Part shown: piece after piece, positions 6,291-21,164 of the stretch | How the letters are laid out: every line of letters begins with the position of its first letter | Numbering within the stretch: position 1 is the first letter of the stretch | Origin: an uncultured Serinicoccus sp. | Lineage (GTDB): Bacteria; Actinomycetota; Actinomycetes; Actinomycetales; Dermatophilaceae | NCBI RefSeq assembly: GCF_947500995.1 | Contig: NZ_CANMUA010000001.1 | Location: forward strand, 62,001-126,000 | DNA length: 64,000 bases | Direction of reading: 5' to 3' | Notes under the pieces: model-generated | The model's input: only the letters and a program-made list of their open reading frames with translations | Told to the model about the DNA's origin: nothing | Databases searched by the model: none | Position numbers and translations under genes: made by a program

Positions 6291-7544
6291 ATGACCGACC
6301 AGCCGCAGCCGCTCGCCGCGCCGGAGCCCCAGGCGGACCCCCTGGTGCTCACCGCCCCCTCGCCGTCCGAGCCGGTCGCCCAGACCGCGGCACCACGCAT
6401 GGCGCCCCAGGTCGACCCGGAGGCGATGCCCGCCCTGGACGCCAAGGTGGAGGCATACCTCGCGGGACTCACCCAGACCGAGACCCGGTCGCCGGAGTTC
6501 GCGCAGCGCGCCGCGGACGTGCGGACCATGGGCGACGCCGACATCCGGGCCGCGGCCGAGACCTCGAACCGCCTGCTCAAGTCCCCCGTCCGGGCCATCC
6601 AGCAGGGCGGGGTGTCCAAGGAGTCGAAGGTCGCGCAGACCCTCACCGAGCTGCGGCACACCGTCGAGGACCTCGACCCGGCTCAGGCGACCGGGGTGAA
6701 GAAGTGGTTCGAGCGGCTGCCCTTCTCGGACCGGATGACCAAGTACTTCCAGAAGTACGAGTCCGCCGAGAAGCACCTCGACGCGATCCTGCACGCCCTG
6801 CGCAGCGGCCAGGACGAGCTGGCCAAGGACAACGCGGCGCTCAACATGGAGAAGCAGCAGCTGTGGGAGTCGATGGGCCGGCTCAACCAGTACGTCTACA
6901 TCGCCGAGCAGCTGGACGCCAAGGTCGCGGCGACCATCGCCGAGCTGGACGCCAGCGACCCGGACCGCGCCAAGGCGATGCGCGAGGACGTGCTCTTCTA
7001 CGTCCGGCAGAAGCACCAGGACCTGCTCACCCAGCTCGCGGTGTCCATCCAGAACTACCTGGCGATCGACATCGTCATGAAGAACAACATCGAGCTCATC
7101 AAGGGTGTGGACCGGGCCTCGACCACCACCGTGTCGGCGCTGCGCACCGCGGTCCTCGTGGCCCAGGCGCTCAACAACCAGAAGCTCGTGCTGGACCAGA
7201 TCACGGCGCTCAACCAGACCACCTCGCAGATGATCCAGAGCACCAGCGAGCTGCTGCGGGACAACTCGGTGGCGATCCAGGAGCAGGCGGCCTCCTCCAC
7301 GCTGGGGCTGGAGCAGCTGCAGGCGGCCTTCACCAACATCTACGCCACCATGGACGCGATCGACGAGTTCCGGGTCCAGGCCCTGGACGGCATGTCGCAG
7401 ACCATCGGGGTGCTCGAGGGCGAGGTCGAGAAGTCCCGGACCTACCTCGACCGGGCGCGGCGCACCGACGGTCGGCTGGCCGGCGGGCAGCTGGACCTGG
7501 ACGGGGGACGGCCGGGCGGGTCGCTGTCGTCGGGACCGCGCTGA
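6291..7544 (+). CDS. telA: TelA family toxic-anion-resistance protein
   Basis: A 417-residue TelA (PF05816) protein. After a Pro/Ala-rich N-terminus (residues 1-45) it is almost entirely helical and includes the family's conserved stretches KSPVRAIQQGG, FDRLPF-like WFERLPFSDRMTKYF, and the long region VDRASTTTVSALRTAVLVAQAL. TelA was named from tellurite resistance, but in many bacteria it belongs to stress-response clusters with kinases, VWA and PP2C proteins, as here. AGGAGAGA lies just before the ATG. It opens a ten-gene run to 19419 in which the next gene begins 1 base after its stop. Confidence 0.9.
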   Translation: MTDQPQPLAAPEPQADPLVLTAPSPSEPVAQTAAPRMAPQVDPEAMPALDAKVEAYLAGLTQTETRSPEFAQRAADVRTMGDADIRAAAETSNRLLKSPVRAIQQGGVSKESKVAQTLTELRHTVEDLDPAQATGVKKWFERLPFSDRMTKYFQKYESAEKHLDAILHALRSGQDELAKDNAALNMEKQQLWESMGRLNQYVYIAEQLDAKVAATIAELDASDPDRAKAMREDVLFYVRQKHQDLLTQLAVSIQNYLAIDIVMKNNIELIKGVDRASTTTVSALRTAVLVAQALNNQKLVLDQITALNQTTSQMIQSTSELLRDNSVAIQEQAASSTLGLEQLQAAFTNIYATMDAIDEFRVQALDGMSQTIGVLEGEVEKSRTYLDRARRTDGRLAGGQLDLDGGRPGGSLSSGPR

Positions 7545-7545
7545 G

Positions 7546-8169
7546 GTGGGCTTCTCCGACCTCCTGGACCGGATGCTGGGTCGCCCGGCGCCCGGTGACG
7601 ACCGGCTGGAGCTGCCCGCTCCCCCGACCGCCCAGGACGTGCACGACGCCCTGGGGTCGACCGAGGAGCTGCTGGGCTCCAGCGCGCTGCCCTCGGTCGT
7701 GGTCGCCCGCGGCACCCGCGTCATCGACACCGTGCGCGACACCCTCCCGCGGCTGGAGAAGCTCAGCGGCAGCGACCTGGGCTACACCGTCGTCGCCACC
7801 GCGACCGACTACCTGCCGGAGGCCATCGGGGCCTACCAGCGCCTCCCCCGCCGGTATGCCGACACCCGCCCGGTCGACGGCGCCAAGACCTCTCTCATGG
7901 TCCTCGTCGACCAGCTCGACCTCCTGGGGCTGACGATGGACCGGGTCTTCGACGCGGTCTACCGCCAGGACGCGCAGGAGCTCGTCGCCCAGGGGCGGTT
8001 CATCGCCGAGAAGTTCGGCTCCTCGGGCGCCGGTGGGTCGTTGCGGCTCACCGAGGAGGAGCACCTGCCGGTGCCCGCGCCCGGCGGTCCGGCCGACGCG
8101 CCGGGGGGCGTGGTCGACCGGGCGGACGGGGTGAGCCCGCTGGCACCACCGCAGGGAGGGGAACGATGA
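7546..8169 (+). CDS. Uncharacterised helical partner of TelA
   Basis: A 207-residue protein that I do not recognise. It has no signal peptide or membrane segment. Residues 20-165 look helical, with a conserved-looking core (TAQDVHDALGSTEELL, DYLPEAIGAYQRLPRRYA), and the last 40 residues are Pro/Gly-rich and probably disordered. The GTG start lies one base after the telA stop, and the stop overlaps the ATPase start by 4 bases, so it is surely co-translated. It occupies the position where other TelA operons carry XpaC-like proteins, but I see no clear similarity to XpaC. Confidence 0.75.
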   Translation: MGFSDLLDRMLGRPAPGDDRLELPAPPTAQDVHDALGSTEELLGSSALPSVVVARGTRVIDTVRDTLPRLEKLSGSDLGYTVVATATDYLPEAIGAYQRLPRRYADTRPVDGAKTSLMVLVDQLDLLGLTMDRVFDAVYRQDAQELVAQGRFIAEKFGSSGAGGSLRLTEEEHLPVPAPGGPADAPGGVVDRADGVSPLAPPQGGER

Positions 8170-9812
8170 GCGCGAGCACGGGCACGGTGCGGGACGCGGT
8201 CGACCTGCTCGCCCGGGTGGGCCGGGAGGCCGGGCTGGACGAGCGCGCGGCGCGCGCCGAGGGGCAGGTCATCGCCGCCGCGGTGCTGGAGCAGCCCGGA
8301 CCGAGCAGCGCGCACACGCTGTGGGCCGGCGCGTTCGACCGGCCGGCGAGCGACTTCTTCGGCGCGGTGCCGCGGGGCCGCAGGTATGCCTCCATCCCCA
8401 CGCCGCTGCTCTCGACGCTCGTGGCCGAGCGCAGCCCGCGCGCGCCGGGGTACGCCCAGGCGCTCGCCGACGTCGCCACGGCGGCCTGCGCCCTGCCGGG
8501 GGCGGGCCAGCTGAGCATCGGCAAGGCCACCTCGGTGGGGCGCACCCAGCTGGCGGCCGCCGGGGTGGCGCCGGCGCACGGGGCGGGGACCGCGACCGAG
8601 GGGCTCACCCCACCGGGTGCCGGACCGACGACCCCCGGCACCGGCGCGGGCGCGCTCGACCCGGGTCAGCTGCATACCTGGTCGAGCGAGCTGCTGCGGC
8701 GCGCGCAGGAGCAGTCCGCGCGCCTGGGCGAGCTCCTGGGCCAACCATCCGCGGCGCCCGGTCGTGACCACGGGCAACCATCTGCGACGCCCGGTGGGGA
8801 GGGTGGCCCGGCGGCAGGGGTCCCGGAGCCGGGGCTGGGAGGCGGACAGCTCGAGTCGCAGACCGAGACCGAGACCGAGGACGAGGACGGGTCCGAGACC
8901 GAGGGTGAGACCGAGGCCGAGCCGGAGCGCTCGGTCGAGGAGCTGCTCGCCGAGCTGGACGAGCTCATCGGGCTGGAGCGGGTCAAGGCCGAGATCCACC
9001 GGCAGGTCGCCGTGCTCAAGATGGACGCACGGCGGCAGGAGGCCGGGCTGAAGGTCGCCACGCTGACCCGGCACCTGGTCTTCGTGGGCAACCCGGGCAC
9101 CGGGAAGACGACCGTGGCCCGCCTGGTCGGAGGGATCTACCGCGCGCTGGGCCTGCTCAGCAAGGGCCAGCTCGTCGAGGTGGACCGCAGCGAGCTGGTG
9201 GCCGGCTACCTCGGCCAGACCGCCGCCAAGACGGCCGAGGTGGTGGGCAGCGCCCACGGCGGGGTCATCTTCATCGACGAGGCCTACAGCCTGGGCGGGG
9301 ACCAGTACGGCAAGGAGGCCATCGACACCCTCGTCAAGGAGATGGAGGACCACCGCGAGGACCTCGTGGTCATCGTCGCGGGCTATCCCGACCCGATGGC
9401 CGACTTCATCGCGACGAACCCGGGCCTGGAGAGCCGCTTCCGCACCATCATCGACTTCGCCGACTACACCGACGACGAGCTCTCCGCCATCCTGCAGCAC
9501 CTCGCCGCGCAGATGGACTACGACCTCAGCGGGCGGGCGCTCACCCGGTTCACCGAGATCCTGGCGGCCACCCCGCGGGGCCCGAGCTTCGGCAACGGCC
9601 GGTTCGCCCGCAACCTGCTCGAGGCGGCCATCGGGCGGCACGCCTGGCGGCTGCGCGACGAGGAGGGCGCGTCGGTGGAGGACTTGCGCACGCTCCAGCA
9701 GGAGGACTTCGAGGACCGCGACGCCGTCGACCTCTCCGTCGCGGACGCGACACCGACCGACGACGGACCGACCGACGCCGGGCCGACCGACGACGGGCAG
9801 GACCCGGCGTGA
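8166..9812 (+). CDS. CbbX/SpoVK-type AAA ATPase
   Basis: A 548-residue AAA+ ATPase of the CbbX/SpoVK type. The N-terminal 180 residues are helical and without a recognised domain. Residues 190-255 form a low-complexity linker ending in an acidic Thr/Glu repeat. The ATPase module runs from about 260 to 520: GLERVKAEI start, Walker A GNPGTGKTT (Lys 314), Walker B VIFIDEAYSL (Asp 371, Glu 372) and an RFARNLLE sensor-2 region. Relatives remodel protein complexes; EccA of type VII secretion has the same module. No ESX genes are near, so the client is probably another product of this operon (inference). Confidence 0.88.
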   Translation: MSASTGTVRDAVDLLARVGREAGLDERAARAEGQVIAAAVLEQPGPSSAHTLWAGAFDRPASDFFGAVPRGRRYASIPTPLLSTLVAERSPRAPGYAQALADVATAACALPGAGQLSIGKATSVGRTQLAAAGVAPAHGAGTATEGLTPPGAGPTTPGTGAGALDPGQLHTWSSELLRRAQEQSARLGELLGQPSAAPGRDHGQPSATPGGEGGPAAGVPEPGLGGGQLESQTETETEDEDGSETEGETEAEPERSVEELLAELDELIGLERVKAEIHRQVAVLKMDARRQEAGLKVATLTRHLVFVGNPGTGKTTVARLVGGIYRALGLLSKGQLVEVDRSELVAGYLGQTAAKTAEVVGSAHGGVIFIDEAYSLGGDQYGKEAIDTLVKEMEDHREDLVVIVAGYPDPMADFIATNPGLESRFRTIIDFADYTDDELSAILQHLAAQMDYDLSGRALTRFTEILAATPRGPSFGNGRFARNLLEAAIGRHAWRLRDEEGASVEDLRTLQQEDFEDRDAVDLSVADATPTDDGPTDAGPTDDGQDPA

Positions 9813-11029
9813 GCACCCCGCAGGGCGGGTCTGCGGCCTCCGCCCGACCGGCCCTGACGACGACCCCCGCGGCCACCACATCGACGGCCGCCGCTGCGTC
9901 GGGGAGTCCGCAGACCCCGTCGCAGACCCAGCCCGGGACCGGTCAGCCCGCCGGGCGCGCCCTGACCGCGCGGCAGCAGCGGCGGCGGGACGAGACGTCC
10001 AGCACCCCCCGGCTCCTGCGGCTGGCCCGGGCCGGGGCGGCTGCGGCCGCGCTGCTCACCGGGGTGGTCGCCACCGGGACCTTCTCGACCGACGGGATCA
10101 ATGCCACCCCCAACGTCGTCGCCGACCAGTGGGCGGCCGCCGAGCAGGCAAGGGTCGACATCCCCCGCGCCGACCTGCTCGCCGCCCAGCGGGTCACCGA
10201 CCCGGACGGCGTGGACGAGCAGACGCTGGAGGCCTACGACGAGGTGCTGCGGGCGGCAGCCACCGACCTGAGCCGGATGGGCGACACCGCGGGGGTCGCC
10301 GCCGGCGGCTGGAACGCCTTCGTCACCGGGGTGGAGCGGGCGGCGGCGCAGGAGTCGACCGAGGTGTACGCCGAGGCCTCGCGGGTAGCGCAGGCCTCCG
10401 CCGCCGAGGCCGTGTCGGTCGCGGACGCCCGCGCCGACGACCTGCTCACCGGGTCACGCTCGGTGCTCACCACGGTGGTGGGCACCCTGGGCGTGGTCGT
10501 GCTCGTCGGGATCATGGTCTGGCTGGCACTGCGCACCCGGCGGATCGTCAACCTGCCGCTCGCGGGTGCCGCCCTCATCACCGCCGGCCTCACCTGGCTC
10601 TCGGTGAACCCCGGTGCCCTGCCGCTGGACTACGACCAGTACGTCCAGGACACCCGCGCGTCCACCACCGCGCTCCAGGAGGTCTACCAGGCCCGTACCG
10701 CCCAGGTCGCCGCGGCCGCCGGGGTGGACGTGGAGGCGCCGGAGCAGCAGGTGACCGAGGCCACCCAGGCGCTGGAGCGGCTCGACGACCCCGACCTGGA
10801 GCAGGCGTGGGCCGAGGTCGCCTCCGGGGAGGACCCGGCGGCGACTGCCGACGCCTACGCCCAGGTCGAGAGCGCCCTCGCCGGCCGGGTGACCGACGAC
10901 CTGGCCCGGGTCGACCCCGGTGTCGGCGCTCCGGCGGCCCTCACCGCGGCCGGCGCGCTGCTCCTGGGCATCGTGGCGGCGGGTCTGGCCTGGACGGGCG
11001 TCACCCAGCGGCTGCGGGACTACCGGTGA
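9809..11029 (+). CDS. Four-TM sensor-like membrane protein A
   Basis: A 406-residue membrane protein. The N-terminal 70 residues are Thr/Ala/Pro-rich and end in the basic stretch RQQRRRDE, suggesting a cytoplasmic tail. Likely membrane helices are near 73-92, 219-241, 249-266 and 374-395, leaving two helical extracytoplasmic domains (93-218 and 267-373). This TM-domain-TM-TM-domain-TM plan resembles GlnX, the membrane sensor encoded beside pknG in mycobacteria and corynebacteria, and the gene lies upstream of pknG here. Overlap is 4 bases with the ATPase and with the next gene. No sequence family is recognised; sensor function is inferred from topology and context. Confidence 0.75.
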   Translation: MSTPQGGSAASARPALTTTPAATTSTAAAASGSPQTPSQTQPGTGQPAGRALTARQQRRRDETSSTPRLLRLARAGAAAAALLTGVVATGTFSTDGINATPNVVADQWAAAEQARVDIPRADLLAAQRVTDPDGVDEQTLEAYDEVLRAAATDLSRMGDTAGVAAGGWNAFVTGVERAAAQESTEVYAEASRVAQASAAEAVSVADARADDLLTGSRSVLTTVVGTLGVVVLVGIMVWLALRTRRIVNLPLAGAALITAGLTWLSVNPGALPLDYDQYVQDTRASTTALQEVYQARTAQVAAAAGVDVEAPEQQVTEATQALERLDDPDLEQAWAEVASGEDPAATADAYAQVESALAGRVTDDLARVDPGVGAPAALTAAGALLLGIVAAGLAWTGVTQRLRDYR

Positions 11030-12483
11030 GCGAGGACCGCAGGCGGGGCCCCGAACCGGAGCTCCCGCCGATGACCATCATCGGGGAGGACCTCCCCGAC
11101 GTCGAGGACACCACGGTCGAGGAGCTGCGGGCCCAGCAGGAGCAGCTGGAGCAGGCCCGCCGCGACCTGGCCGACCGTGCCCGCGAGGAGCGGGAGCGCG
11201 CCGAGCAGCAGCTGGCCGCCGAGCGGCGCCGGGCCGAGCGCGAGCTGGCCCGCCGGCAGCGCGAGATCGACGACGCCGAGCGGCGGCTGCTGCGGACCGA
11301 GCGACGCCTGCGCAAGGAGGCGGCCAGCTCCGGTCGGCACGTCGACCTGCCCCGGAGGCCCCGCCGGGCCGCCCGCCGCTCCGACAGCGAGCTCCTCGAC
11401 GCGGCACGGGCCGAGCTGAGCACGAGGGTCCCGCGGCTGGGGCTCGCCGCCACCCTCGCGCTGGGCGCCGGGCTCCTGCTGGCTCTCGGCAGCACGCTGT
11501 CCACGGACCGGGTCGAGCAGGAGCAGACGCAACCGCTCACCGTCCTCGACACCGCCCAGGCCGACCTGCGCGACGCCGTGTCGTCCCTCGACTCCGAGCT
11601 GGTGCGCTACGCGACCGGCGACCCCGTGCCGCCGGACGACGCCGGGCGGCTGCCCAGCGTGACGGCCGCGCTGGAGGTGCTGGGCCGGGAGGGGATCGAC
11701 CCCTACGCCGCCGAGCGACTCTCCGAGGCCGAGCCGGGGTTGTCCGGCGACGCGGTGAGCCCGGTCCGCGCTGCCACCGCCTGGCAGGACACGCGGAGGG
11801 ACATGGCGTCTGCCGTCTCGTCCTGGGACGTGGAGCGCGAGATCGAGGAGCTGCGGCCCGGGTCGGCGCTCGGCACCCTCCTGCTGTGGGCGGGCGCCCT
11901 GGTCCTCGTCGTCGCGGCGGTCGTGCTGCTGCGGGCGGGGGCCAAGGTCGCGAGCGCCTTCTTCGTGCTGGCGGCCCTCTCGACGTCGCTGCTCGTGGTC
12001 CAGGACACCCAGCCGGGGTGGCGGCGGGCGGTGGTGGCCCACGAGGAGGCGAGCGACCGTCCTGCGGGACTTCAGCAGGTCGTCGAGGACGACCTGCGGG
12101 TCGTGGTGGGGCTGCGCTCGTTGGACCCGTGGCAGACCGAGGACGACGAGTACGGCTACTGGAACCAGCACTACGGCCTCGAGGACGGCTCGGACCCGGA
12201 CGGCGCCCTGGCGCAGGCCCGCGCCGACCTGGGCCGGGTCCTCACGGGGGACAGCAGCCAGGAGGAGCAGCGCACGGCCGCCCTCGACCTCGTGGCGGCG
12301 GCCGACGAGGTCCGGGACCCCCTGGAGGCCGACCTGGTCACGGCCCGCGAGGCCGTGGTGGCCGAGTCGACCACCGGTCCCTCAGCCGGGCTGCTGGGTG
12401 CCGGGCTGGGGCTGGCCGTGCTGCTGCCCTTCGCCGGCCTGGGGGCGGAGTCGCTGGCCCGACGCCGGAGGGAGACCCCGTGA
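11026..12483 (+). CDS. Coiled-coil four-TM sensor-like membrane protein B
   Basis: A 485-residue protein. Residues 30-100 form a strongly charged Glu/Arg coiled coil, probably cytoplasmic. Membrane helices are likely near 138-156, 281-303, 307-326 and 452-474, with extracytoplasmic segments 157-280 and 327-451. The layout repeats that of protein A just upstream, so the two may form a hetero-oligomeric sensor. The second outer segment contains an aromatic run DEYGYWNQHYGLEDGSD that could be a binding surface. The GTG start overlaps the previous stop in GTGA. Function is unknown; a signal-input role to the downstream kinase is inferred. Confidence 0.72.
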   Translation: MSEDRRRGPEPELPPMTIIGEDLPDVEDTTVEELRAQQEQLEQARRDLADRAREERERAEQQLAAERRRAERELARRQREIDDAERRLLRTERRLRKEAASSGRHVDLPRRPRRAARRSDSELLDAARAELSTRVPRLGLAATLALGAGLLLALGSTLSTDRVEQEQTQPLTVLDTAQADLRDAVSSLDSELVRYATGDPVPPDDAGRLPSVTAALEVLGREGIDPYAAERLSEAEPGLSGDAVSPVRAATAWQDTRRDMASAVSSWDVEREIEELRPGSALGTLLLWAGALVLVVAAVVLLRAGAKVASAFFVLAALSTSLLVVQDTQPGWRRAVVAHEEASDRPAGLQQVVEDDLRVVVGLRSLDPWQTEDDEYGYWNQHYGLEDGSDPDGALAQARADLGRVLTGDSSQEEQRTAALDLVAAADEVRDPLEADLVTAREAVVAESTTGPSAGLLGAGLGLAVLLPFAGLGAESLARRRRETP

Positions 12484-13616
12484 GCCCCACCCACGCCACC
12501 GCGCCCGCCGCCCCGGGCAGCATCGGGGCGGACGTCCCGGACACCGAGCTGCTGGCCTACCTGGACGCCATGCTGCGGTGGAAGGACCGTCGGCGCAGCG
12601 AGCTGGCCGCCCTCGACGAGGCGGCGCTGGCCGTCGCCGACGCGCACGAACGGGCCGCGGTCACCCCCGACGTCACCCTGTCGATGACCCTCTGGCAGGC
12701 CGTGGCGGACCGGCTCGCGCTCATCCAGGCCACGTGGGACAGCGGCCGGGTGGGCGAGCGGGAGCGACGCCGGATCACCACCCTCGTCTGGGGCAGCCTC
12801 GAGCAGCCGGGCACCCGCGGGGCGCAGTCGCTGGCGGTCTCGCTCCCCGAGGCCTGCCGGCTCTCGGACTCCCTGGCCTCCTCCCTGCGCTCCCGGCTGC
12901 GCCTCGACGGGGCCGACCCCGACCTGCCCGGCCGGTTGCGCGCGCTGCGCCAGCAGGTCGAGCGCATCGCCGACCAGGTCGCGCTCATCCCGGACGCCCG
13001 CTCCGGCTCGGCCGCCGGGGCGCACCGCGAGCTCGACCAGCGGCTCACCGACATCACCGACCGCGCTGCCCGGGGCGCGGACGTCGGAGGCCTGCTGGGC
13101 CCGCTGGAGTCCCAGGCCGCCACGGTGGAGCGTGACCTCATCGTCGCCGCGTCCGCGCGGGCGCACGCCAAGGCCGACCACGCCCAGGCCACCCGCGAGG
13201 TGGCCGAGCTCTCCGCCCGCGGTGAGGCCGTCCGCGCGCTGGCCCACCGCGCCCGCGCCACGGTCACCCCGGCGCCCCGCCTCGGCGTCCCCGACGTCGC
13301 CGCCCTGGGTCCGGTGCCCGGCGACCCGACCGAGCTCACGGCATACCGGGGGCGGCTGGAGCGCGTCGAGCGTGCCCTCACCGTCGCCCAGGGCGAGTAT
13401 GCCGCCGCACTGGAACGAATCGAGGACCTCACCGAGCGCGCGGCCCGGGTCCGGCGGCAGCTGACGCAGTCCTCGGGGGAGCCCGAGCCGGCCATCGAGG
13501 TCCTCGCCGACCAGACCGACGCCCTGCTCGCGACCCGGCCGACCGACCTCACCCGGTTGCAGGCCCTCGTGCAGGCCCAGGAGAGCTTCGCCACCGCGAT
13601 GGGAGGACGACCGTGA
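12480..13616 (+). CDS. Uncharacterised cytoplasmic helical protein
   Basis: A 378-residue protein without signal peptide, membrane helix or recognised domain. The sequence is almost wholly helical, with coiled-coil tendency near residues 130-200 and 280-330 (heptad-like runs of Leu with Arg/Glu). It lies between the second membrane protein and pknG, overlapping each by 4 bases as GTGA, so it should be made in step with both. A scaffold or adaptor linking the sensors to the kinase is possible, but nothing in the sequence proves it. Confidence 0.7.
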   Translation: MSPTHATAPAAPGSIGADVPDTELLAYLDAMLRWKDRRRSELAALDEAALAVADAHERAAVTPDVTLSMTLWQAVADRLALIQATWDSGRVGERERRRITTLVWGSLEQPGTRGAQSLAVSLPEACRLSDSLASSLRSRLRLDGADPDLPGRLRALRQQVERIADQVALIPDARSGSAAGAHRELDQRLTDITDRAARGADVGGLLGPLESQAATVERDLIVAASARAHAKADHAQATREVAELSARGEAVRALAHRARATVTPAPRLGVPDVAALGPVPGDPTELTAYRGRLERVERALTVAQGEYAAALERIEDLTERAARVRRQLTQSSGEPEPAIEVLADQTDALLATRPTDLTRLQALVQAQESFATAMGGRP

Positions 13617-15922
13617 CCGCGTGCCAGGAGCCGGGGTGCACCGGCCGCTACGAGGACGGCTGGTGCAACGTGTGCGGTGCGCCCGAGCCGCGGCAGGCGC
13701 CGATCGAGGCGACCCCGGTGCGCCCGGACCCGGACCCGGTCCGAGCCGCGGGCGCCGCCTCCCCCGCCGCCGGGGCCTCCCGGGCCCCCGGGAGCTCCGG
13801 GAACTCGGGGAGCTCCGCGGCCGCCGACCCCGCGCAGGGGTCGGTCCAGGTGGTCGCCACGCCCGCGCCGGGGCAGACGCAGCAGGCCGTGAGCGCGGCC
13901 CGGGTGCGGCGCCGGCGTGCCGGGGCCGCCGGTCGCCGCTCCCGCCTGGGCCTGGGCCTCACCGACGTGCCGGACGTGCCGGTGACCGACCCGACCGAGA
14001 AGCTCATGGTCGACCCGCGGGTCCCCGAGGACCGGCGCGTCTGCCCGGTCTGCGGCGCCGACGTCGGCCGGGCCGCGGGGCAGGCGGAGGGGCGCCAGCA
14101 GGGCTTCTGCCCGCAGTGCCGCGCCCCCTACTCCTTCACCCCCAAGCTGGGGCCCGGGGAGCTGGTGGCGGGGCAGTACGAGAACGTCGGTGCCCTCGCC
14201 CACGGCGGCATGGGGTGGATCTACCTGGGCCGCGACAAGAACGTCTCGGACCGGTTCGTCGTGCTCAAGGGGCTGCTCAACACCGGTGACGAGGACGCCC
14301 TGGACGCCGCCGTCGCCGAGCAGCAGTTCCTGGCCCAGGTCAAGCACCCGCTCATCGTCGAGATCTACAACACCGTCCAGCACGACGAGGACGCCTACAC
14401 CGTCATGGAGCACGTCGGCGGTCGCTCGCTCAAGCAGCTGCTGCAGGACCGGATGGCGGAGGCGGGCCGCTACGCGCCCTTCCCCGTCGACCAGGCCCTG
14501 GCCTACGTCATCGAGGCGCTGCCGGCGTTCACCCACCTGCACGAGCTCGGGCTGCTCTACTGCGACTTCAAGCCGGACAACCTCATCCACGAGGGCGACG
14601 GCATCAAGCTCATCGACCTGGGCGGGGTGCGCCGGCAGGACGACCTGGAGTCCCCCATCTACGGCACGGTCGGCTACCAGGCCCCCGAGGTGGCCGAGGT
14701 CGGCCCCTCGGTCGCCTCCGACATCTACACCATCGGCCGCACCCTGTGCGTGCTGACCTTTGAGTTCCGCGGCTACCAGAGCGAGTACGTCCACTCCCTG
14801 CCCCCCATGTCCCAGGTCCCGGCCTTCACCGAGCACGACGCCTTCTACCGCGTCGTCGCGCGGTGCTGCGCCCCGGACCCGAACGACCGCTTCCTGTCCG
14901 TGGAGGAGCTGCGCAGCCAGCTCGTCGGGGTGCTGCGCCAGGTCGTGGCGGCCAGCGGGCCGGGCCGGCCCGCCACCCTCTCCGCGCACAGCCCCGCCTT
15001 CGACCCACCGGTCACCACCGGGGAGACCCTGTCGTGGTGGGAGCTGCCCGAGCTGCAGCGGGACGACACCGACCCCATGCTCGACTGGATCTCGGGGCGG
15101 AGCACCAACGACCCGCAGGCGACCTACGAGGCGCTGGGCGCGGCCCCGGAGGACACCCCGGAGGTGTTCCTGGCCCGGGCCCGGGCCGGCATCCGGATGG
15201 GTCAGCGCAGCTGGGTCGAGGAGGCCGTGCGCGGTCTGCTGGCCGAGGACCCGTGGGACTGGCGGGGCTCGTGGATCCGCGGGCTGTGGGCGCTCTCGCA
15301 GGCCGAGGGCGAGCACGTGCGGGAGCGCGCCCAGGAGGCCGGCGGGCACTTCGCCGCGGTGCGGGACGCCCTGCCGGGCGAGATCGCCCCGCGCATGGCG
15401 CTCGCGCTGGCCACCGAGCTGGCCGGCTACGACCAGGCCGCCGAGCTGGACTACGAGCGGGCCTGGCGCACGGACGCGGCCTACGTCGCCCCGGCCGCCT
15501 TCGGCCTGCACCGGGTGCGCATGGCCCGCGGCGACGTCGACGGCGCCATCGCCGCCCTGGACTCGGTGCCGGCGAGCAGCAGGGCCCACCCGCGCGCCCG
15601 GTGGCTGCGGGCCGAGCTGCTGCGTCGTCGAGGAGGTCTCGCGGACCTGCGCGAGTCCATGCACTCGGTCACCCGCCTCACCCTCGACCCGCGCCAGCGG
15701 GCGCAGTTCAACGCGGTCATCTACGAGCAGGCGCTGGACGAGGTGACCCAGCGCGGCCCCCAGCCGGACTGGCGGGTGGGTGAGGTCCCGCTCACCCGCG
15801 ACGCGCTGCAGCGCGCCCTGGAGCGGGAGTACCGCGTCCTCGCCGACTACACCCCCGACCCGCAGGAGCGGGCCGGGCTCATCGACCGCGCCAACGCGGT
15901 CCGCCCCTGGAGCTGGACATGA
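13613..15922 (+). CDS. pknG: PknG-type serine/threonine protein kinase with TPR region
   Basis: A 769-residue soluble kinase with PknG architecture. A short zinc-ribbon-like element (Cys 4, 9, 18, 21) comes first, then a rubredoxin-like pair CPVC (144-147) and CPQC (166-169), the kinase domain (about 185-450) and TPR-like helical repeats to the end. Key residues are Lys 219 (VVLKG), catalytic Asp 318 (YCDFKPDN), Asp 335 (IDLGG in place of DFG) and the GTVGYQAPEV segment, all close to mycobacterial PknG. PknG phosphorylates small FHA proteins such as GarA in response to amino-acid signals sensed by GlnX/GlnH. Here a phosphatase, a VWA protein and an FHA protein follow immediately. Confidence 0.92.
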   Translation: MTACQEPGCTGRYEDGWCNVCGAPEPRQAPIEATPVRPDPDPVRAAGAASPAAGASRAPGSSGNSGSSAAADPAQGSVQVVATPAPGQTQQAVSAARVRRRRAGAAGRRSRLGLGLTDVPDVPVTDPTEKLMVDPRVPEDRRVCPVCGADVGRAAGQAEGRQQGFCPQCRAPYSFTPKLGPGELVAGQYENVGALAHGGMGWIYLGRDKNVSDRFVVLKGLLNTGDEDALDAAVAEQQFLAQVKHPLIVEIYNTVQHDEDAYTVMEHVGGRSLKQLLQDRMAEAGRYAPFPVDQALAYVIEALPAFTHLHELGLLYCDFKPDNLIHEGDGIKLIDLGGVRRQDDLESPIYGTVGYQAPEVAEVGPSVASDIYTIGRTLCVLTFEFRGYQSEYVHSLPPMSQVPAFTEHDAFYRVVARCCAPDPNDRFLSVEELRSQLVGVLRQVVAASGPGRPATLSAHSPAFDPPVTTGETLSWWELPELQRDDTDPMLDWISGRSTNDPQATYEALGAAPEDTPEVFLARARAGIRMGQRSWVEEAVRGLLAEDPWDWRGSWIRGLWALSQAEGEHVRERAQEAGGHFAAVRDALPGEIAPRMALALATELAGYDQAAELDYERAWRTDAAYVAPAAFGLHRVRMARGDVDGAIAALDSVPASSRAHPRARWLRAELLRRRGGLADLRESMHSVTRLTLDPRQRAQFNAVIYEQALDEVTQRGPQPDWRVGEVPLTRDALQRALEREYRVLADYTPDPQERAGLIDRANAVRPWSWT

Positions 15923-17064
15923 GCGACCCGACCACGGCCCCGCTGCCGGACGACCCGACCGCACCGATCCCCGCGCCCGGGTCCGGCCGCACCGAGGCGC
16001 CCGCCCCCGGCGCCGAGCAGCCGGAGGCCGAGCCCGGTGCCGATGCCGCCCAGCCGGAGGCCGCACCCGCCGAGCCCGCTGCGGAGGAGGAGCCGGAGCC
16101 GTTCAGCGACGGGCCGCCGCCGCTGCCGGAGCCGATGCTGGTGCTGGACGGCGCGCTTCCCCCGGCCGCAGCGGCCGCTCCCGAGGTCGACCACGGCACC
16201 TGCACCTCCTGCGGCGGCGGCTTCGACGAGGAGGGGTGGTGCACGCAGTGCGGGGAGCGCCGCCCCGACCCGCGCCACCACGTCACGTCCGCGCCCTCGG
16301 CGTCGGTGGCCGGGGTGTGCGACCGGGGCCGGCGGCACCGCGACAACGAGGACGCGATGGCGCTGTGGGCCGACGACGGCCAGCCCGGTCGGGCCGTGCT
16401 CGTCGTCTGCGACGGGGTGTCCAGCGCCCCCCGCTCCGCCGAGGCCAGCCTGGCGGCCGCCGAGGCCGCGCTCGAGCAGCTGCGCGGCTCCGGTGACCCC
16501 GAGCAGCGGCACGACCGGGCGGCCCGGGCCGCGGCCGACGCCGTGGCCGCGGTGGCCGGTGAGAGCCACCGCGACGCGCCGTCGTGCACCTACGTCAGTG
16601 CCGTGGTCGAGGACGACCGCGCCAGCGTCGCCTCGATCGGGGACAGCCGGGCCTACTGGCTGCCCGACGACGGGGAGCCGCAGCGGCTCACCAGCGACGA
16701 CTCGATGGCCGAGGAGCAGGTGCGCGCCGGCATACCCCGGGCCGAGGCCGAGGCGGGCCCGCTGGCGCACACCATCACCCGCTGGCTGGGGCCGGACTCG
16801 CCCGACCACCGGCCCGGCACCACGGTGCACGACGTCGCCGCGCCCGGCTGGCTGCTGCTCGCCAGCGACGGCCTGTGGAACTACGCCTCCGACCCGGCCG
16901 ACCTCGCCGCCGTGGTCCGCTCGGTCGGCTCCCGGGTCGGCCACTCTCCCGCGCCGCTGGCCCAGGGCCTGGTGGACTGGGCCAACGAGCAGGGCGGCGC
17001 CGACAACATCACGGTCGCCCTCGCCCGCTGCGGGGACGCGAGGCAGGATGGGACCCATGGCTGA
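15919..17064 (+). CDS. PP2C-family protein phosphatase with zinc ribbon
   Basis: A 381-residue PP2C (PPM) metal-dependent phosphatase. The first 90 residues are Pro/Glu/Ala-rich, followed by a zinc ribbon with Cys 95, 98, 108 and 111 resembling that at the N-terminus of the kinase upstream. The catalytic domain runs from about 130: RDNEDA, VVCDGVSS (Asp 165), SIGDSRAYW, LLLASDGLW and ADNITVA hold the metal-binding acidic residues. Expected to remove phosphate from PknG targets, or from the kinase itself. ATG overlaps the pknG stop in ATGA. Confidence 0.9.
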   Translation: MSDPTTAPLPDDPTAPIPAPGSGRTEAPAPGAEQPEAEPGADAAQPEAAPAEPAAEEEPEPFSDGPPPLPEPMLVLDGALPPAAAAAPEVDHGTCTSCGGGFDEEGWCTQCGERRPDPRHHVTSAPSASVAGVCDRGRRHRDNEDAMALWADDGQPGRAVLVVCDGVSSAPRSAEASLAAAEAALEQLRGSGDPEQRHDRAARAAADAVAAVAGESHRDAPSCTYVSAVVEDDRASVASIGDSRAYWLPDDGEPQRLTSDDSMAEEQVRAGIPRAEAEAGPLAHTITRWLGPDSPDHRPGTTVHDVAAPGWLLLASDGLWNYASDPADLAAVVRSVGSRVGHSPAPLAQGLVDWANEQGGADNITVALARCGDARQDGTHG

Positions 17065-18379
17065 GTTCACCTCGACCGTCCACCAGAACGAGTTCCTGCC
17101 CGACGGGGGCACCGACGTGCACGCGATCGTCTCGGTCACATGCTCCGGGGCCGGGGAGGTGGTCGCCTGGGGCGGCTCGGGAGGCACGGGCGGCGCGGGG
17201 TATCCGGGCGGTTCCGGTGGCGACGCCGGCGAGGTCATCATCGTCGACGTCTCGGGCTCCATGGACGTCCAGGGGGTGCAGGCGGCGGCGTATGCCGCGT
17301 CCGCCGCGCTCGACGAGATCGTGGACGGCGTGTGGTTCGCCATCGTGGCGGGCAACCACGAGGCGGCGTTGTGCTACCCGACCGGCACCTCGGCCGCGAT
17401 GGCCCGGATGTCGGCCCAGACGCGGCTGGAGGCCAAGCGGTCGCTGCAGCGACTGGCCCCGGGTGGGGGGACGGCGATGGGCCGCTGGCTGCTGGCGGCC
17501 GGCCAGCTGTTCGCCACCGTGCCCTCGCTGTCCAAGCGGCACGCGATCCTGCTCACCGACGGCGCCAACCAGCACGAGACCCCGCAGGAGCTGAGCTGGG
17601 CGCTGGACCAGGTGCGCGGCCGGTTCCAGGTGGACTGTCGCGGGCTGGGTGCCGCGTGGCAGGTGGCCGAGGTCCGCCGTATCGCCGAGACGCTGCTGGG
17701 CAGCGTCGACCTCATCCGCACCTGGGACGGGCTGAGCGAGGACTTCGCCGCGCTCATGGCGTCCTCGATGGGCAAGGGGGTCAGCGACGCGCAGCTGCGC
17801 GTGTGGGCGCCCCAGGGTGCCGAGGTGCTCTTCGTCAAGCAGGTCAGCCCCACGCTCGAGGACCTCTCCGGTCGTCGGGTCGAGGTCAACGCGCTCACCG
17901 GCGGGTACGACACCGGCGCCTGGGGTGACGAGACCCGCGACTACCACGTCGCGGTGCGGCTGGCCCCCAAGGCGGTCGGCCAGGAGCAGCTCGCCTCGCG
18001 CGTGCAGCTCGTCGTGGGCGGGGAGGTCCGCACGCAGGGCCTGGTCAAGGCGGCCTGGTCGTCGGACGACGTGCTGACCGCCCAGATCAGCCCGGAGGTC
18101 GCGCACTACACCGGCCAGACCGAGCTGGCCTCGGCGATCCAGGAGGGGCTGCGGGCCAAGGCCATGGGCGACGACGTGACCGCCACGTCCCGGCTGGGCC
18201 GCGCGGTGCAGCTGGCCCGCGAGACCGGGGACGACGGGGCCACGTCGCGCCTGTCGCGGGTCGTCGACATCGACGACGCCGCGACCGGCCGGGTGCGCCT
18301 GCGCCGGCACGTCGACAAGCTGGACGAGATGGAGCTGGACACCGCCTCCACCAAGACGACCCGGGTCCGGCCCAGCTGA
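17057..18379 (+). CDS. VWA-domain protein with intact MIDAS
   Basis: A 440-residue protein with a von Willebrand factor A domain around residues 58-250. The metal-ion-dependent adhesion site is complete: DVSGSM (Asp 64), GGGTAMG and LLTDGANQH. A Gly-rich loop (39-56) precedes it and a beta-rich C-terminal part follows, ending in a short basic/Thr-rich tail. There is no signal peptide, so it should act in the cytoplasm, probably as a metal-dependent scaffold. ATG 17057 is preferred over the in-frame ATG 17048 because of its spacing from AGGATGGG. It overlaps the phosphatase gene by 8 bases. Confidence 0.88.
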   Translation: MAEFTSTVHQNEFLPDGGTDVHAIVSVTCSGAGEVVAWGGSGGTGGAGYPGGSGGDAGEVIIVDVSGSMDVQGVQAAAYAASAALDEIVDGVWFAIVAGNHEAALCYPTGTSAAMARMSAQTRLEAKRSLQRLAPGGGTAMGRWLLAAGQLFATVPSLSKRHAILLTDGANQHETPQELSWALDQVRGRFQVDCRGLGAAWQVAEVRRIAETLLGSVDLIRTWDGLSEDFAALMASSMGKGVSDAQLRVWAPQGAEVLFVKQVSPTLEDLSGRRVEVNALTGGYDTGAWGDETRDYHVAVRLAPKAVGQEQLASRVQLVVGGEVRTQGLVKAAWSSDDVLTAQISPEVAHYTGQTELASAIQEGLRAKAMGDDVTATSRLGRAVQLARETGDDGATSRLSRVVDIDDAATGRVRLRRHVDKLDEMELDTASTKTTRVRPS

Positions 18380-19419
18380 TGGTGCGGTGCCCCGAGGGCC
18401 ACGAGAGCGAGGCCACCGACTACTGCGACACCTGCGGCGCACCCATCGCCGCCCCGCCGGCGGGTCCGGTCGACCCCTCCGGGGCGGCCGGCGCCCCGGG
18501 GGCGCCACGACCGGCGTCGGGCGGGTCGGTCCTCGACCTCGACGAGCCGGTCGCGCAGACGCTGTCCTGCCCGCACTGCGGCGGCGTCAACGTCGCGGAC
18601 GCCCTCTTCTGCGAGGCGTGCGGCTACGACTTCACCACCGGCGCCCTCCCGCTGGGCGCCGAGCCCGAGGAAGCCGAGGAGGACCCGGTCGCCGAGGCAG
18701 AGACGACCGAGGCCGAACCACCCGAGCCCGAACCATCCGAGGCCGTCGTCGAGCCCGACCCCGAGGCAGCCGAGACGCCCGTGTCCGCCCCCAAGGCGCC
18801 CGAGTCCGACCTCAAGGCGCCCGAGGCCGACCCGGAGACGCCCGCGCCGGAGACGCCCGCGACAGAGGCACCCGAACCCGACCCGGAGACGCCCGAGCCG
18901 CCGCCGGGGCCGGAGCCCGAGGACCCGCCCGCGCAGGCCACCCCCGGGCCCGCCGCGGTCGGGCACGCCCGGCCACGGCATACCCCTCCCTCGCGCGACC
19001 TCGCGGACGCGTGGGTGGTGGAGGTCTGGGTCGACCCCGACTGGTATGCCGTGCAGCAGACCGCGGAGGCGTGCCCCAGCGCCGGGGTCCCGGACGTCGT
19101 GGTCGTGCGGCGCAGCGTCGTCATGGTCGGGCGGCCCTCCGGGAGCCTCGGCGTGCGCCCGGAGGTGGATGCCGGTGCCGACAGCGCCGTCTCGCGGCGG
19201 CACGCCCAGCTGACCAGCGACGGGACCCGGTGGTGGATCGAGGACCTCGGCAGCAGCAACGGCACCTACGTCGGTGTCGTGGGCGAGCCGCTGCCGACGC
19301 AGGCCCTGACGCCCGGCCAGCGGGTCGAGATCGACCGGGACGACCGCATCTACGTCGGGGCCTGGACCCGGCTGGTGCTGCGTCAGGCGACGGCGGCCGA
19401 GCGGGCCGGTCAGGGCTGA
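18379..19419 (+). CDS. Zinc-ribbon FHA-domain protein
   Basis: A 346-residue protein with two N-terminal zinc-ribbon elements (Cys 4/His 8/Cys 16/Cys 19 and Cys 64/67/78/81), a long Pro/Glu/Ala-rich acidic linker (about 95-190) and a C-terminal FHA domain (about 235-335). The FHA phosphothreonine-binding residues are present: GRPS, SRRHAQL and GSSNGTYV. A linker segment reading AETTEAE (Thr 109-110) is reminiscent of the ETTS phospho-site of GarA, a known PknG substrate. It is therefore the best candidate for the kinase's effector (inference). Start and previous stop share one base. It closes the overlapping gene run. Confidence 0.88.
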   Translation: MVRCPEGHESEATDYCDTCGAPIAAPPAGPVDPSGAAGAPGAPRPASGGSVLDLDEPVAQTLSCPHCGGVNVADALFCEACGYDFTTGALPLGAEPEEAEEDPVAEAETTEAEPPEPEPSEAVVEPDPEAAETPVSAPKAPESDLKAPEADPETPAPETPATEAPEPDPETPEPPPGPEPEDPPAQATPGPAAVGHARPRHTPPSRDLADAWVVEVWVDPDWYAVQQTAEACPSAGVPDVVVVRRSVVMVGRPSGSLGVRPEVDAGADSAVSRRHAQLTSDGTRWWIEDLGSSNGTYVGVVGEPLPTQALTPGQRVEIDRDDRIYVGAWTRLVLRQATAAERAGQG

Positions 19420-19480
19420 CCGAGGCCGGCGGCGTGCCGCACCCTGCGTCCGGCCCACCGCTGCACCTAGAGTCGTCCCC

Positions 19481-20347
19481 ATGCCCACCGACCCCCCGGC
19501 ACAGACGACCCGCACCAGCCGTGCCCGGCTGCGCCGCTCCGGCCGTCACCTGCTGCGCCTGGGGGGTCTGCTGGCCGTCGTGTCCCTCGTCGTCACCCTC
19601 GTCGGCGGGTGGGCCACCCGCTCCCTGCTGGAGCACCTGCAGTCCAACTCGGCCGAGCTGCTGGACGGCACCGCGACGGTCTCGCTGACCGAGGGCACGG
19701 AGCGCACGCTCTACGTCACCGGTGGCCTCGTCGCACCGGGCGAGATCGCCCCGACCCCGGTCGACCAGATCAGCTGCACCATCACCGGGCCCGGTGGCGA
19801 GCTGCCGTTCACCACCCTGGCCGAGGAGGGGAGCCGGGTCGGGATCGACACGGCGCTGGCCCGCTTCCAGGTCGTCGGCAGGTTCACCGCGGCGGACACC
19901 GGCGAGCACCAGATCGACTGCGAGGGTCTCGGTGTCGTGGTGGCCCCGGACGTCGGCCCGGCCAACGCGTTGCTGCGCCTCGGCGGGCTCGCGCTCGGCA
20001 CCCTCGGAACCTTCGTCGGCCTCTCGATGGTGCTCATCGGTGGCGTCCTGCTGCTGCTCGTCCGGGCACCCGACGGGGTCCAGGACGGTGAGGAGATCGT
20101 CGACGACGCCCCTCCGGCCGAGGGGGCCGACGAGTGGTGGGAGGACGAGGCCGGCGAGGGCCGGCCCGAGCAGGCGGGGCGGCCTGCGGGCAGCGACGAT
20201 GCCGAGGCCGCGGACGGCGACGCCGAGTTCGTCGACCTCAGCGACGAGGAGCTGGCCGCGCTGTCGGAGGAGCAGATCGCCGAGCTGGTCGCCTCCGGGA
20301 AGCTGGTCTTCGTCGACGACGACGAGGACGACACCACGCGTTCGTGA
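19481..20347 (+). CDS. Two-TM membrane protein, paralogue 1
   Basis: A 288-residue protein with a basic N-terminus, membrane helices near residues 26-46 and 169-192, an extracytoplasmic domain of about 120 residues between them, and an acidic cytoplasmic tail (DEEIVDDAPPAEGADEWW-like). The outer domain holds two cysteines in CTITGPGG and DCEGLG contexts, probably a disulfide across a small beta domain. The next gene has the same layout and the same cysteine contexts. I recognise no family. It starts 61 bases after the FHA gene and may be its own unit. Confidence 0.75.
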   Translation: MPTDPPAQTTRTSRARLRRSGRHLLRLGGLLAVVSLVVTLVGGWATRSLLEHLQSNSAELLDGTATVSLTEGTERTLYVTGGLVAPGEIAPTPVDQISCTITGPGGELPFTTLAEEGSRVGIDTALARFQVVGRFTAADTGEHQIDCEGLGVVVAPDVGPANALLRLGGLALGTLGTFVGLSMVLIGGVLLLLVRAPDGVQDGEEIVDDAPPAEGADEWWEDEAGEGRPEQAGRPAGSDDAEAADGDAEFVDLSDEELAALSEEQIAELVASGKLVFVDDDEDDTTRS

Positions 20348-20438
20348 CCCGGTGGCGTGGGTCGTCCCCGACCGGCCCGGAATGCCCCGCGACCCGGCGG
20401 TGCGCGCGACGCCGAGGCGCTGCGGATAAGGTCGTGCC

Positions 20439-21164
20439 ATGAGCTACGGGAACCCTCCGGCACCGCGACGCAGCGGTCTCACCACGGCCGGCAAGTGGAT
20501 GTTCATCATCGGCCTCGTCCTGTCGGTCATCGTCGGGATCGGCGTGGCCTGGGGCGGGGTGCAGGGCGCCCGGATGTTCAGCGACCTCCAGGGCGGCGGG
20601 ACGCCGATCGACGAGGGCCAGACGACCGTCTCCATGGAGGAGGGCGACCTGCGGCTGGTGACCGCCGAGGGCAGCCAGACCCCGACGTGCACGGTGACCG
20701 GGCCGGACGGCACCGAGTCGGCGCTCACCCAGGACAGCACGTTCGACACCGGTGACCAGCAGGTCGACGCCCAGCTGGTGGGCACCTACCAGGCCACCGC
20801 GACCGGGGAGCACACCTTCACCTGCGAGGGCGGCACCGCGTCGCTGTCGCCGAGCATCAGCATCGGCTCCACCATCGGCCTGGCGGTCGCGGGCCTGGGC
20901 ATCCTGGCGCTCATCCCGCTGCTGCTGCTCACCGGCATCGGCCTCATCCTGTGGCTCGTCGGCCGCAGCAGGGACCGGAAGGCCGCGGACGGGCCGCCCG
21001 GGGGCTACGGCTACGGCACCGCCTACCCCCAGCAGGGCTACGGCCAGCCGCAGGACAGCGGCTACCCGCAGGCACCGGGGCAGGGCTACGGCCAGCAGTA
21101 CGGCCAGGGGTCGCCCCCGCGGCCGCCCGGCCAGGACCCGACCGACCCCTACCGCCGGGACTGA
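20439..21164 (+). CDS. Two-TM membrane protein, paralogue 2
   Basis: A 241-residue paralogue of the preceding protein: TM helix near 18-38, an outer beta-rich domain with cysteines in CTVTGPDG and TCEGGT contexts, and a second TM helix near 150-178. The acidic tail of the first copy is replaced by a Gly/Tyr/Gln/Pro-rich low-complexity tail with GYG/QGYGQ repeats, of the kind that can self-associate. Function is unknown. It starts 91 bases after its paralogue and ends 12 bases before the convergent SDR gene. Confidence 0.75.
   Translation: MSYGNPPAPRRSGLTTAGKWMFIIGLVLSVIVGIGVAWGGVQGARMFSDLQGGGTPIDEGQTTVSMEEGDLRLVTAEGSQTPTCTVTGPDGTESALTQDSTFDTGDQQVDAQLVGTYQATATGEHTFTCEGGTASLSPSISIGSTIGLAVAGLGILALIPLLLLTGIGLILWLVGRSRDRKAADGPPGGYGYGTAYPQQGYGQPQDSGYPQAPGQGYGQQYGQGSPPRPPGQDPTDPYRRD

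Follow-up and report, generated by a model that had tools for sequence, protein, structure and literature searches.

A conserved ten-gene block around PknG in the Serinicoccus/Ornithinimicrobium group, and its possible reading as an enlarged PknG-GlnX pathway

The protein kinase PknG has been heavily studied, and is known mainly for connecting amino-acid sensing to GarA/OdhI. In the stretch of DNA analysed here (64,000 nucleotides, referred to as the window), whose source is the Serinicoccus/Ornithinimicrobium group, the PknG gene is packed among genes for other signalling and stress-related proteins. This raises the question of whether the whole set works as one system, and on what the kinase would then act. 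An earlier note on this DNA had proposed a single signalling cluster over 6291..21164. The features concerned are the following.

6291..7544, + strand: TelA, toxic-anion-resistance family (PF05816, 298 bits)
7546..8169, + strand: UNK1, small protein with no Pfam family, constant neighbour of TelA
8166..9812, + strand: AAA ATPase of the CbbX/SpoVK/EccA group (PF00004 and PF17866, AAA_lid_6)
9809..11029, + strand: TM1, four-TM receptor of GlnX type, with GlnX homology and two outer domains
11026..12483, + strand: TM2, four-TM protein, probable GlnX duplicate, with a cytosolic N-terminal coil; GTG start at 11026, or ATG at 11071
11083..11115, + strand: cytosolic motif GEDLPDVEDTT of TM2, candidate phosphorylation or docking site
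12480..13616, + strand: HEL, all-helical protein outside named families
13613..15922, + strand: PknG kinase (PknG_rubred PF16919, Pkinase PF00069, PknG_TPR PF16918)
15919..17064, + strand: PP2C phosphatase (PP2C_2 PF13672), CxxC pairs in its N-terminal half
17057..18379, + strand: VWA protein (VWA_3 and VWA_3_C domains), metal site intact
18347..18367, + strand: VWA tail STKTTRV, candidate target of PknG and ligand for FHA
18379..19419, + strand: FHA protein (double zinc ribbon PF12773, FHA PF00498)
19481..20347, + strand: TM3, accessory confined to the genus; two membrane segments, one outer domain
20439..21164, + strand: TM4, relative of TM3, genus-only accessory

The first ten genes (6291-19419) form a compact + strand block, as the note had described: adjacent ends overlap by 1-8 bases, or sit one base apart. 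The proposed assignments of TelA, AAA, PknG, PP2C, VWA and FHA agree with their Pfam families, and both the phosphatase (15919-17064) and the FHA partner (18379-19419) do lie inside the operon. At the Pfam cut-off, no family is assigned to UNK1, TM1, TM2, HEL, TM3 or TM4. The ten-gene part of the proposed stretch stands, while its last two genes do not belong to the block proper: TM3 and TM4 are found in none of the relatives' loci outside the window's genus. A search for promoters and terminators, expected to return almost none in any case, was empty, so that the operon borders rest on gene spacing. A tRNA-Arg called on the opposite strand, inside the FHA gene, is taken as spurious.

The conservation of the block was evaluated by using UNK1 as bait: 80 named loci were kept out of 324 UNK1 loci. 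Gene order is identical in all 80, among whose hosts are Kribbella, Nocardioides and Cellulomonas, and every member is present wherever the contig reaches (TelA 78/78, AAA 73/73, GlnX 71/71, HEL 67/67, PknG 66/66, PP2C 61/61). The ten-gene block is real, far beyond chance, and is one ordered unit. The genes thus travel together; linkage being common, the rare linkage set beforehand as a refuting test is not the case. Of the 297 genomes covered by a family survey of the order, 31 carry VWA_3_C, and each of these also has PknG_TPR and TelA; the UNK1-baited survey and such UNK1-independent ones are in accord. Within the genus the block is patchy, being present in 18 out of 28 genomes, and TelA is absent from all seven PknG-less genus genomes tested.

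Partial arrangements are also found. Four reduced loci keep GlnX-GlnH-PknG, and TelA, UNK1, AAA, HEL and VWA are all absent from them together. In one genus of a further family (f5), probably Streptomyces, the core is present without UNK1 in 4/4 genomes checked, and TelA in only one of these four, which indicates that TelA-UNK1-AAA is not indispensable. A three-gene satellite of UNK1, HEL and FHA occurs again in two genomes (G296 and G309), in the latter without PknG.

The input side was considered in the two membrane proteins, each with four hydrophobic stretches and a pair of large outer loops. TM1 scores E 1.2e-7 (31 bits) against the NCBIfam GlnX model NF058618, below its cut-off of 250, yet the model is matched by 26 of 27 aligned relatives, and a profile comparison of TM1 with other GlnX gives 99.7%. 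With homology, four-TM topology, and a place ahead of the GlnH position and PknG, TM1 is a GlnX-family protein by sequence, to be seen as a diverged homologue rather than a strict member of the model. The resemblance to GlnX noted earlier is borne out, though not by topology alone, since TM1 is homologous to it. The claimed duplication of the sensor is probable. The membrane part of TM2 gives 95.9% over 324 columns with GlnX of the genus, but a weaker 60.2% over 84 columns with GlnX of other genera (controls with TM4: 2.6% and 1.9%); an earlier comparison gave 65% over 44 columns, and the NCBIfam GlnX model does not match TM2. These profiles make TM2 a probable, diverged duplicate of GlnX. It is present in 17 of 18 genus loci; for its structure model (pLDDT 81.2), Foldseek returns nothing from the PDB at E 0.001 or better.

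At the position of TM2, 49 of 67 loci, among the 80 named ones of the 324, carry a gene for the GlnH lipoprotein. The absence of GlnH, already noted, was confirmed for both block and genome: the best match in the whole genome scores 155 bits, against 394-502 bits for true GlnH in three relatives. This absence is a derived state, because the block elsewhere normally includes GlnH. In lineages that lost it, GlnX and the other members of the block persist; there GlnX diverged, whereas HEL, TelA and UNK1 did not. Whether GlnX can sense ligands unaided is a question raised in the available text of PMC9769921, and GlnH-less lineages represent a natural experiment on GlnX sensing by itself.

The signalling parts look intact, judging from conserved residues. 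PknG features N-terminal CxxC pairs and, in a single protein, the rubredoxin, kinase and PknG-type TPR domains, all three above Pfam cut-offs; it aligns with 2pzi at E 4.5e-122, with kinase motifs kept. PP2C motifs are conserved across 49 order-level sequences, and the FHA motifs GRxS, SRRH and SNGT in 41 sequences. The MIDAS of the VWA protein is intact, as had been read: D64, S66, S68, T139 and D168 are invariant in 24/24 aligned sequences.

Two short stretches may be sites of action for the kinase. A pattern like STKTxRV is found within the last 20 residues in all 102 complete VWA sequences (98 distinct), and its S, T and T are invariant even in paralogues 30-32% identical. It resembles ETTSV, from the GarA/OdhI site, and is a candidate phospho-site. 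Distant paralogues keep these residues in loci with no detected PP2C or FHA partner, so that a different protein may read the tail. TM2 is well conserved only at its cytosolic start, GEDxPDVEDTT: its first 20 residues are 85% identical, against 42-43% in the outer domains, and a DNA match is found in the motif region at 11101-11114. Here DVEDTT resembles the proven GarA/OdhI site VETTSV, making it a candidate phospho-site as well; unlike GarA and the VWA tail, it has no V three residues past either threonine. Both likenesses to the GarA/OdhI site span a short stretch. According to the available text of PMC8546545, the PknG site ETTS lies in SDEVTVETTSVFRADFL.

The remaining members would make up the output side. 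The block TelA is the sole one of the genome and has no PDB relative by sequence. AAA scores 281 bits with SpoVK, 245 with EccA and 229 with CbbX, each below the NCBIfam equivalog cut-off, and carries an N-terminal region of its own. HEL is conserved within the block; a Foldseek comparison of its model (pLDDT 88.9) with the PDB likewise gives no hit at E 0.001 or better. TelA beside a helical partner recalls the TelA/YaaN-XpaC operon of Firmicutes. The identification of UNK1 with XpaC was rejected: a D-YLP stretch is alike by eye, yet hhalign gives 3.2%, 0.1%, 0.3% and 3.4%. A relative of UNK1 does occur with TelA, away from PknG, in another genome (G430), where three TerD genes and one of the TerC family lie next to them; the UNK1 match to it is independent (E 1.8e-8). 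A later profile comparison is not, because the G430 protein sat in the query alignment. The arrangement, seen here in this one genome, indicates a TelA-UNK1 pair common to Ter clusters, and to this extent the Ter-type likeness claimed earlier holds.

How these parts work together may be explained in several ways. Ordinary nutrient control, in which PknG acts mainly on GarA/OdhI and so on 2-oxoglutarate metabolism, the neighbours merely tuning it (PP2C as eraser, the FHA protein as second inhibitor), is unlikely. In its favour, the GlnX-GlnH-PknG core corresponds to the published pathway, as given in the available text of PMC6069109 and PMC9769921. The block shares with the mycobacterial and corynebacterial GlnH-GlnX-PknG-GarA/OdhI system the PknG domains, the GlnX-type receptor in the operon and, in most of its relatives, GlnH. 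The genome also encodes, unlinked to the block, an OdhI/GarA relative (170 bits over 114/130 positions), but it falls below the OdhI cut-off of 200 and does not carry the ETTS motif: its N-terminus, read by eye, is DPTTARL, without the ETTSVF stretch. GlnH, moreover, is missing, and nutrient control leaves TelA, UNK1, AAA, HEL and VWA, as constant neighbours, unexplained. The operon differs from the known system by the addition of PP2C, VWA, FHA and HEL, joined in many genera by TelA, UNK1 and AAA, and in the window's genus by the presence of TM2 and the absence of GlnH.

Somewhat more doubtful is that a Ter-type stress-resistance operon recruited PknG, the work being done by TelA-UNK1-AAA-VWA, with kinase, phosphatase and receptors as regulatory add-ons unrelated to nutrient sensing. 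The G430 cluster fits this, as do the place of TelA/YaaN in the sigma-W regulon and the higher nisin and tellurite susceptibility of a telA mutant (available text of PMC3498285 and PMC12791056). But the ten genes include no TerD or TerC relative in the Pfam search, and the core occurs without TelA in loci of f5 and of another genome (G169), so that the kinase part seems to predate the TelA part. A TerY-P triad consists of a TerY-type vWA, a PP2C and a kinase, and in this block, too, a kinase, a PP2C and a VWA protein are encoded by adjoining genes; a 2012 analysis of Ter systems reportedly described such kinase-PP2C-VWA triads. A conflict or phage-defence system is very improbable. In actinobacteria, genes for a kinase that often bears a zinc ribbon, for a PP2C and for a stand-alone vWA adjoin one another near GAP1-N2 GTPases (PMC7159879, whose available text mentions neither PknG nor TelA); here the kinase is PknG, accompanied by GlnX, FHA, TelA, UNK1, AAA and HEL. 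The patchiness within the genus (18/28) would suit defence, and PADLOC reports similarity for PknG, PP2C, AAA and, weakly, HEL. These matches, however, seem to reflect a general resemblance among kinases, PP2C, AAA and coiled-coil proteins; none is reported for TelA, UNK1, GlnX, TM2, VWA or FHA, and members and order are constant across many genera, with no swapped effectors.

The reading preferred here, held tentatively and at somewhat under an even chance, is that the block may be one signalling system: an enlarged PknG-GlnX pathway, with VWA and TM2 marked and TelA-UNK1-AAA-HEL as output. An outside signal would pass through GlnX and TM2 to PknG, without an amino-acid-binding lipoprotein; PknG would phosphorylate a threonine in the VWA tail (STKTxRV) and in the TM2 motif (DVEDTT). 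The FHA protein would bind the phosphorylated tail, joining VWA to HEL, UNK1 and TelA, and PP2C would erase the mark and so reset the system. The output would most likely be tolerance of envelope-active stress, in line with the TelA findings of PMC3498285 and PMC12791056. The note's wider interpretation is borne out in part; its envelope sensing, and its remodelling by AAA and TelA, would be conjectures like the phosphorylation itself. The GarA/OdhI relative elsewhere in the genome may remain the main PknG target.

A more specific proposal, somewhat less secure, is that across actinobacteria VWA might be a standing PknG substrate, with its invariant tail as the site, FHA as the reader and GarA/OdhI as a parallel branch. 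In Serinicoccus/Ornithinimicrobium the input might have been rewired, through loss of GlnH and duplication of GlnX into a receptor bearing a phospho-site of its own, to which another tandem copy is sometimes added.

In the literature, no description of the ten-gene combination was found, nor any report joining PknG to toxic anion resistance, or dealing with a protein kinase in Serinicoccus and Ornithinimicrobium together. If the preferred reading is true, PknG would stand at the centre of a ten-gene system across much of the phylum, owning a phosphatase, a phospho-reader and a VWA substrate, with concrete peptides to test, and its role would extend beyond the known nutrient control. The block may also supply TelA with a regulator and partners.

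The ten genes at 6291-19419 run in one direction, and their ends either overlap by 1-8 bases or lie one base apart. They encode, in order, TelA, a small protein without Pfam family (UNK1), an AAA ATPase, two four-TM proteins (TM1, of GlnX type, and TM2), an all-helical protein (HEL), PknG, a PP2C phosphatase, a VWA protein and an FHA protein. The earlier note had read such a run of ten adjoining genes, with TelA, AAA, PknG, PP2C, VWA and FHA among them, and both spacing and family searches confirm it: these six products are recognized, while UNK1, TM1, TM2 and HEL have no Pfam match at the family cut-off. The TM2 start is probably the GTG at 11026, with the same 4-base overlap with the preceding gene as in other genus members. 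Across its kinase motifs, PknG can be aligned with the solved structure 2pzi; the VWA metal site is invariant (24 out of 24 aligned sequences), and conservation of motifs extends over 41 order-level sequences for FHA and 49 for PP2C. Zinc-ribbon-like CxxC pairs can be read in the PknG, PP2C and FHA proteins; Pfam finds a double zinc ribbon in the FHA protein only, and a rubredoxin domain in PknG. At the PknG N-terminus (13613-13940), many order relatives have a Ser/Thr-rich stretch, e.g. GTSSTRLR, before the rubredoxin domain; none was seen by eye in the window's genus, and the absent stretch may have held autophosphorylation sites. Opposite the FHA gene, at 18854-18949 on the minus strand, ARAGORN reports a tRNA-Arg (ccg), probably spurious.

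The window is from the Serinicoccus/Ornithinimicrobium group, here indicated as the genus, and its genome contains one PknG_TPR protein and one TelA. PknG is present in 18 of the 28 genus genomes. Seven of the ten genomes without it (all except G313, G315 and G316) were searched for TelA and UNK1, absent from seven and six of them, respectively; the block seems to have been gained or lost nearly whole within the genus. All 18 genus loci feature every member except GlnH, the lipoprotein of the known PknG pathway, some of them as split genes. Among 297 genomes of the order, surveyed without a bait, PknG_TPR (E < 1e-30) is found in 34, VWA_3_C in 31 and TelA in 87. All 31 VWA_3_C genomes have both PknG and TelA; three genomes (G430, G460, G579) have PknG without VWA_3_C. 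For 37 loci of the order outside the genus, members were typed by profile: 28 contain all ten, GlnH included, one (L075) misses only GlnH, and four (L057, L058, L103, L109) are interrupted by contig ends. The other four (L102, L113, L118, L125) are reduced: GlnX, GlnH and PknG are kept, and TelA, UNK1, AAA, HEL and VWA are gone. The genome of L125 has a full block as well (L100), L125 being its second copy.

A search with UNK1 returned 324 relatives, the best 80 of which were used for counts in named loci. Gene order, judged by gene ends, is identical in 80 out of 80; wherever the contig reaches, these loci contain TelA (78/78), AAA (73/73), GlnX (71/71), HEL (67/67), PknG (66/66) and PP2C (61/61). 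VWA and FHA, at the edge of these loci, were left out of the counts. A few neighbours are swapped in L145 and L215 when sorted by match starts, which is taken as an effect of that sorting. Since UNK1 was the bait, the result shows that its close relatives sit within the block. The genera involved include Serinicoccus, Ornithinimicrobium, Austwickia, Mobilicoccus, Kribbella, Nocardioides, Microlunatus, Kineosporia, Cellulomonas and Terrabacter, among others. The cluster noted earlier is confirmed, with a linkage stronger than sequence alone could show; the interpretation attached to it is partly supported.

In family f5 (probably Streptomyces), ten of the 11 main loci contain GlnX, GlnH, HEL, PknG, PP2C, VWA and FHA, the eleventh (L091) being in pieces; TelA, UNK1 and AAA are absent from them, and in four f5 genomes checked TelA is found elsewhere in one and UNK1 in none. 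In three second PknG loci of f5 (L082, L085, L093), PknG is diverged and adjoins a VWA protein that is diverged too; a binding-protein gene may lie close by, and no relative of PP2C or FHA was found. Of the eight loci of f6 (probably mycobacteria and relatives), seven contain GlnX-GlnH-PknG and one PknG alone. G169, from another class, has HEL, PknG, PP2C, VWA and FHA, with GlnX and GlnH nearby on the opposite strand. TM3 and TM4, encoded 3' of the block, are found in genus loci only. A three-gene UNK1-HEL-FHA satellite recurs in G296 and in G309, which has no PknG, suggesting that the three genes form a unit. In G296 the cassette follows the main block on its downstream side (L137:2022-4605); in G309, a genus member also without TelA, it stands alone (L231:8855-11741). 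In G430, a row of genes away from PknG (L232:5624-11017) comprises TelA, a relative of UNK1, three TerD genes and one TerC/DUF475 gene.

The absence of GlnH, as previously noted, is borne out by whole-genome searches: it is missing from all six genus genomes searched, where the best match scores 146-159 bits, versus 394-502 bits in three GlnH-bearing relatives. In the 67 named loci reaching past HEL (from the best 80 of 324), the gap between GlnX and HEL contains GlnH in 49, TM2 in eight and neither in ten; in these ten, GlnX is 15-77 bases from the HEL match start, so that no gene was overlooked there. TM2 is present in 17 of the 18 genus loci; L069 and L071 carry an extra copy, as do L065, where it is split, and L073, where it is short. 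On the minus strand of L077 (11288-12936) and L078 (11315-12951), both from genus members, TM2 reads as two overlapping frames, one with the conserved N-terminal motif and the other with the membrane part, through either a genuine split or a frameshift common to both. Neither GlnH nor TM2 is found in L076 or in the Agilicoccus, Mobilicoccus and Austwickia loci, and GlnH is kept in two Dermatophilaceae MAGs (L168, L174); from these we infer that GlnH was lost before TM2 was gained.

The NCBIfam GlnX model is matched by 26 of 27 aligned TM1 relatives; the window TM1 itself reaches 31 bits, where the cut-off is 250. By profile comparison, TM2 matches genus GlnX at 95.9% (E 6e-9, 324 columns) and, more weakly, GlnX of other genera (60.2%, 84 columns), TM4 controls giving 2.6% and 1.9%. 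On these grounds TM2 is a probable GlnX duplicate, in line with the duplicated sensor topology noted earlier. Where the GlnH place is empty, GlnX scores are lower (median 96 vs 391 bits, 11 vs 50 loci, Mann-Whitney p 2.9e-7), those of HEL, TelA and UNK1 are unchanged (p 0.93, 0.34, 0.45) and those of PknG slightly lower (1026 vs 1096, p 3.4e-6), p values being a guide only, as loci with GlnH supply most of the profile and the species are related.

The tail of the VWA protein reads DEMxL(D/E)TxSTKT(T/V/S)RV. Within the last 20 residues, ST[KRQ]T[TVSIA]R[VI] is present in 102 out of 102 complete VWA proteins, 98 of them distinct when the last 200 residues are compared, and its second threonine is followed by 5-9 residues; 28 incomplete rows and the three distant f5 paralogues were set apart. 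These paralogues (L082, L085, L093; 30-32% identity to the window protein) retain S, T, T, followed by a zinc-ribbon-like, CxxC-rich end. In TM2, identity among ten genus members drops from 85% in the first 20 residues to 56% in the coil, 44-49% in the membrane segments and 42-43% in the outer domains; its N-terminal motif, GEDxPDVEDTT, is predicted to be cytosolic. Within SDEVTVETTSVFRADFL of GarA/OdhI, the first ETTS threonine is the proven PknG site (PMC8546545), with which the VWA tail has T-x-x-V in common, and TM2 an acidic residue before T-T. Judged by these motifs, both are plausible candidate phospho-switches. A GarA/OdhI relative in the window's own genome (contig C4, L139:1486-2016, minus strand) has an FHA domain that looks intact, its N-terminus reading DPTTARL, not ETTSVF.

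No description of the ten-gene block was found in searches of open-licence papers, which are no proof of absence. A pknG-glnX-glnH operon is described as widely conserved (PMC6069109), in a text where a word search finds neither a phosphatase nor a von Willebrand or tellurite protein. Triads of kinase, PP2C and vWA near GAP1-N2 GTPases are reported in actinobacteria (PMC7159879), in a paper mentioning neither PknG nor TelA. We regard the block as a variant of the PknG-GlnX kind. GlnX is described as a receptor with four-helix-bundle sensor domains, passing amino-acid signals from GlnH to PknG (PMC6069109, PMC9769921); here, the signal would have to reach PknG without GlnH. Because phosphatase and FHA reader share the operon, the simplest circuit would run from receptor to PknG; the VWA tail and TM2 would then be marked by the kinase, for FHA to bind and PP2C to erase. 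As to the output, in G430 a relative of UNK1 is paired with TelA next to TerD genes. In Bacillus subtilis, TelA/YaaN is part of the sigma-W regulon (PMC3498285), and disruption of the Listeria homologue is reported to increase susceptibility to nisin and tellurite (cited in PMC12791056); our guess from this is that the output of the block may concern envelope stress.
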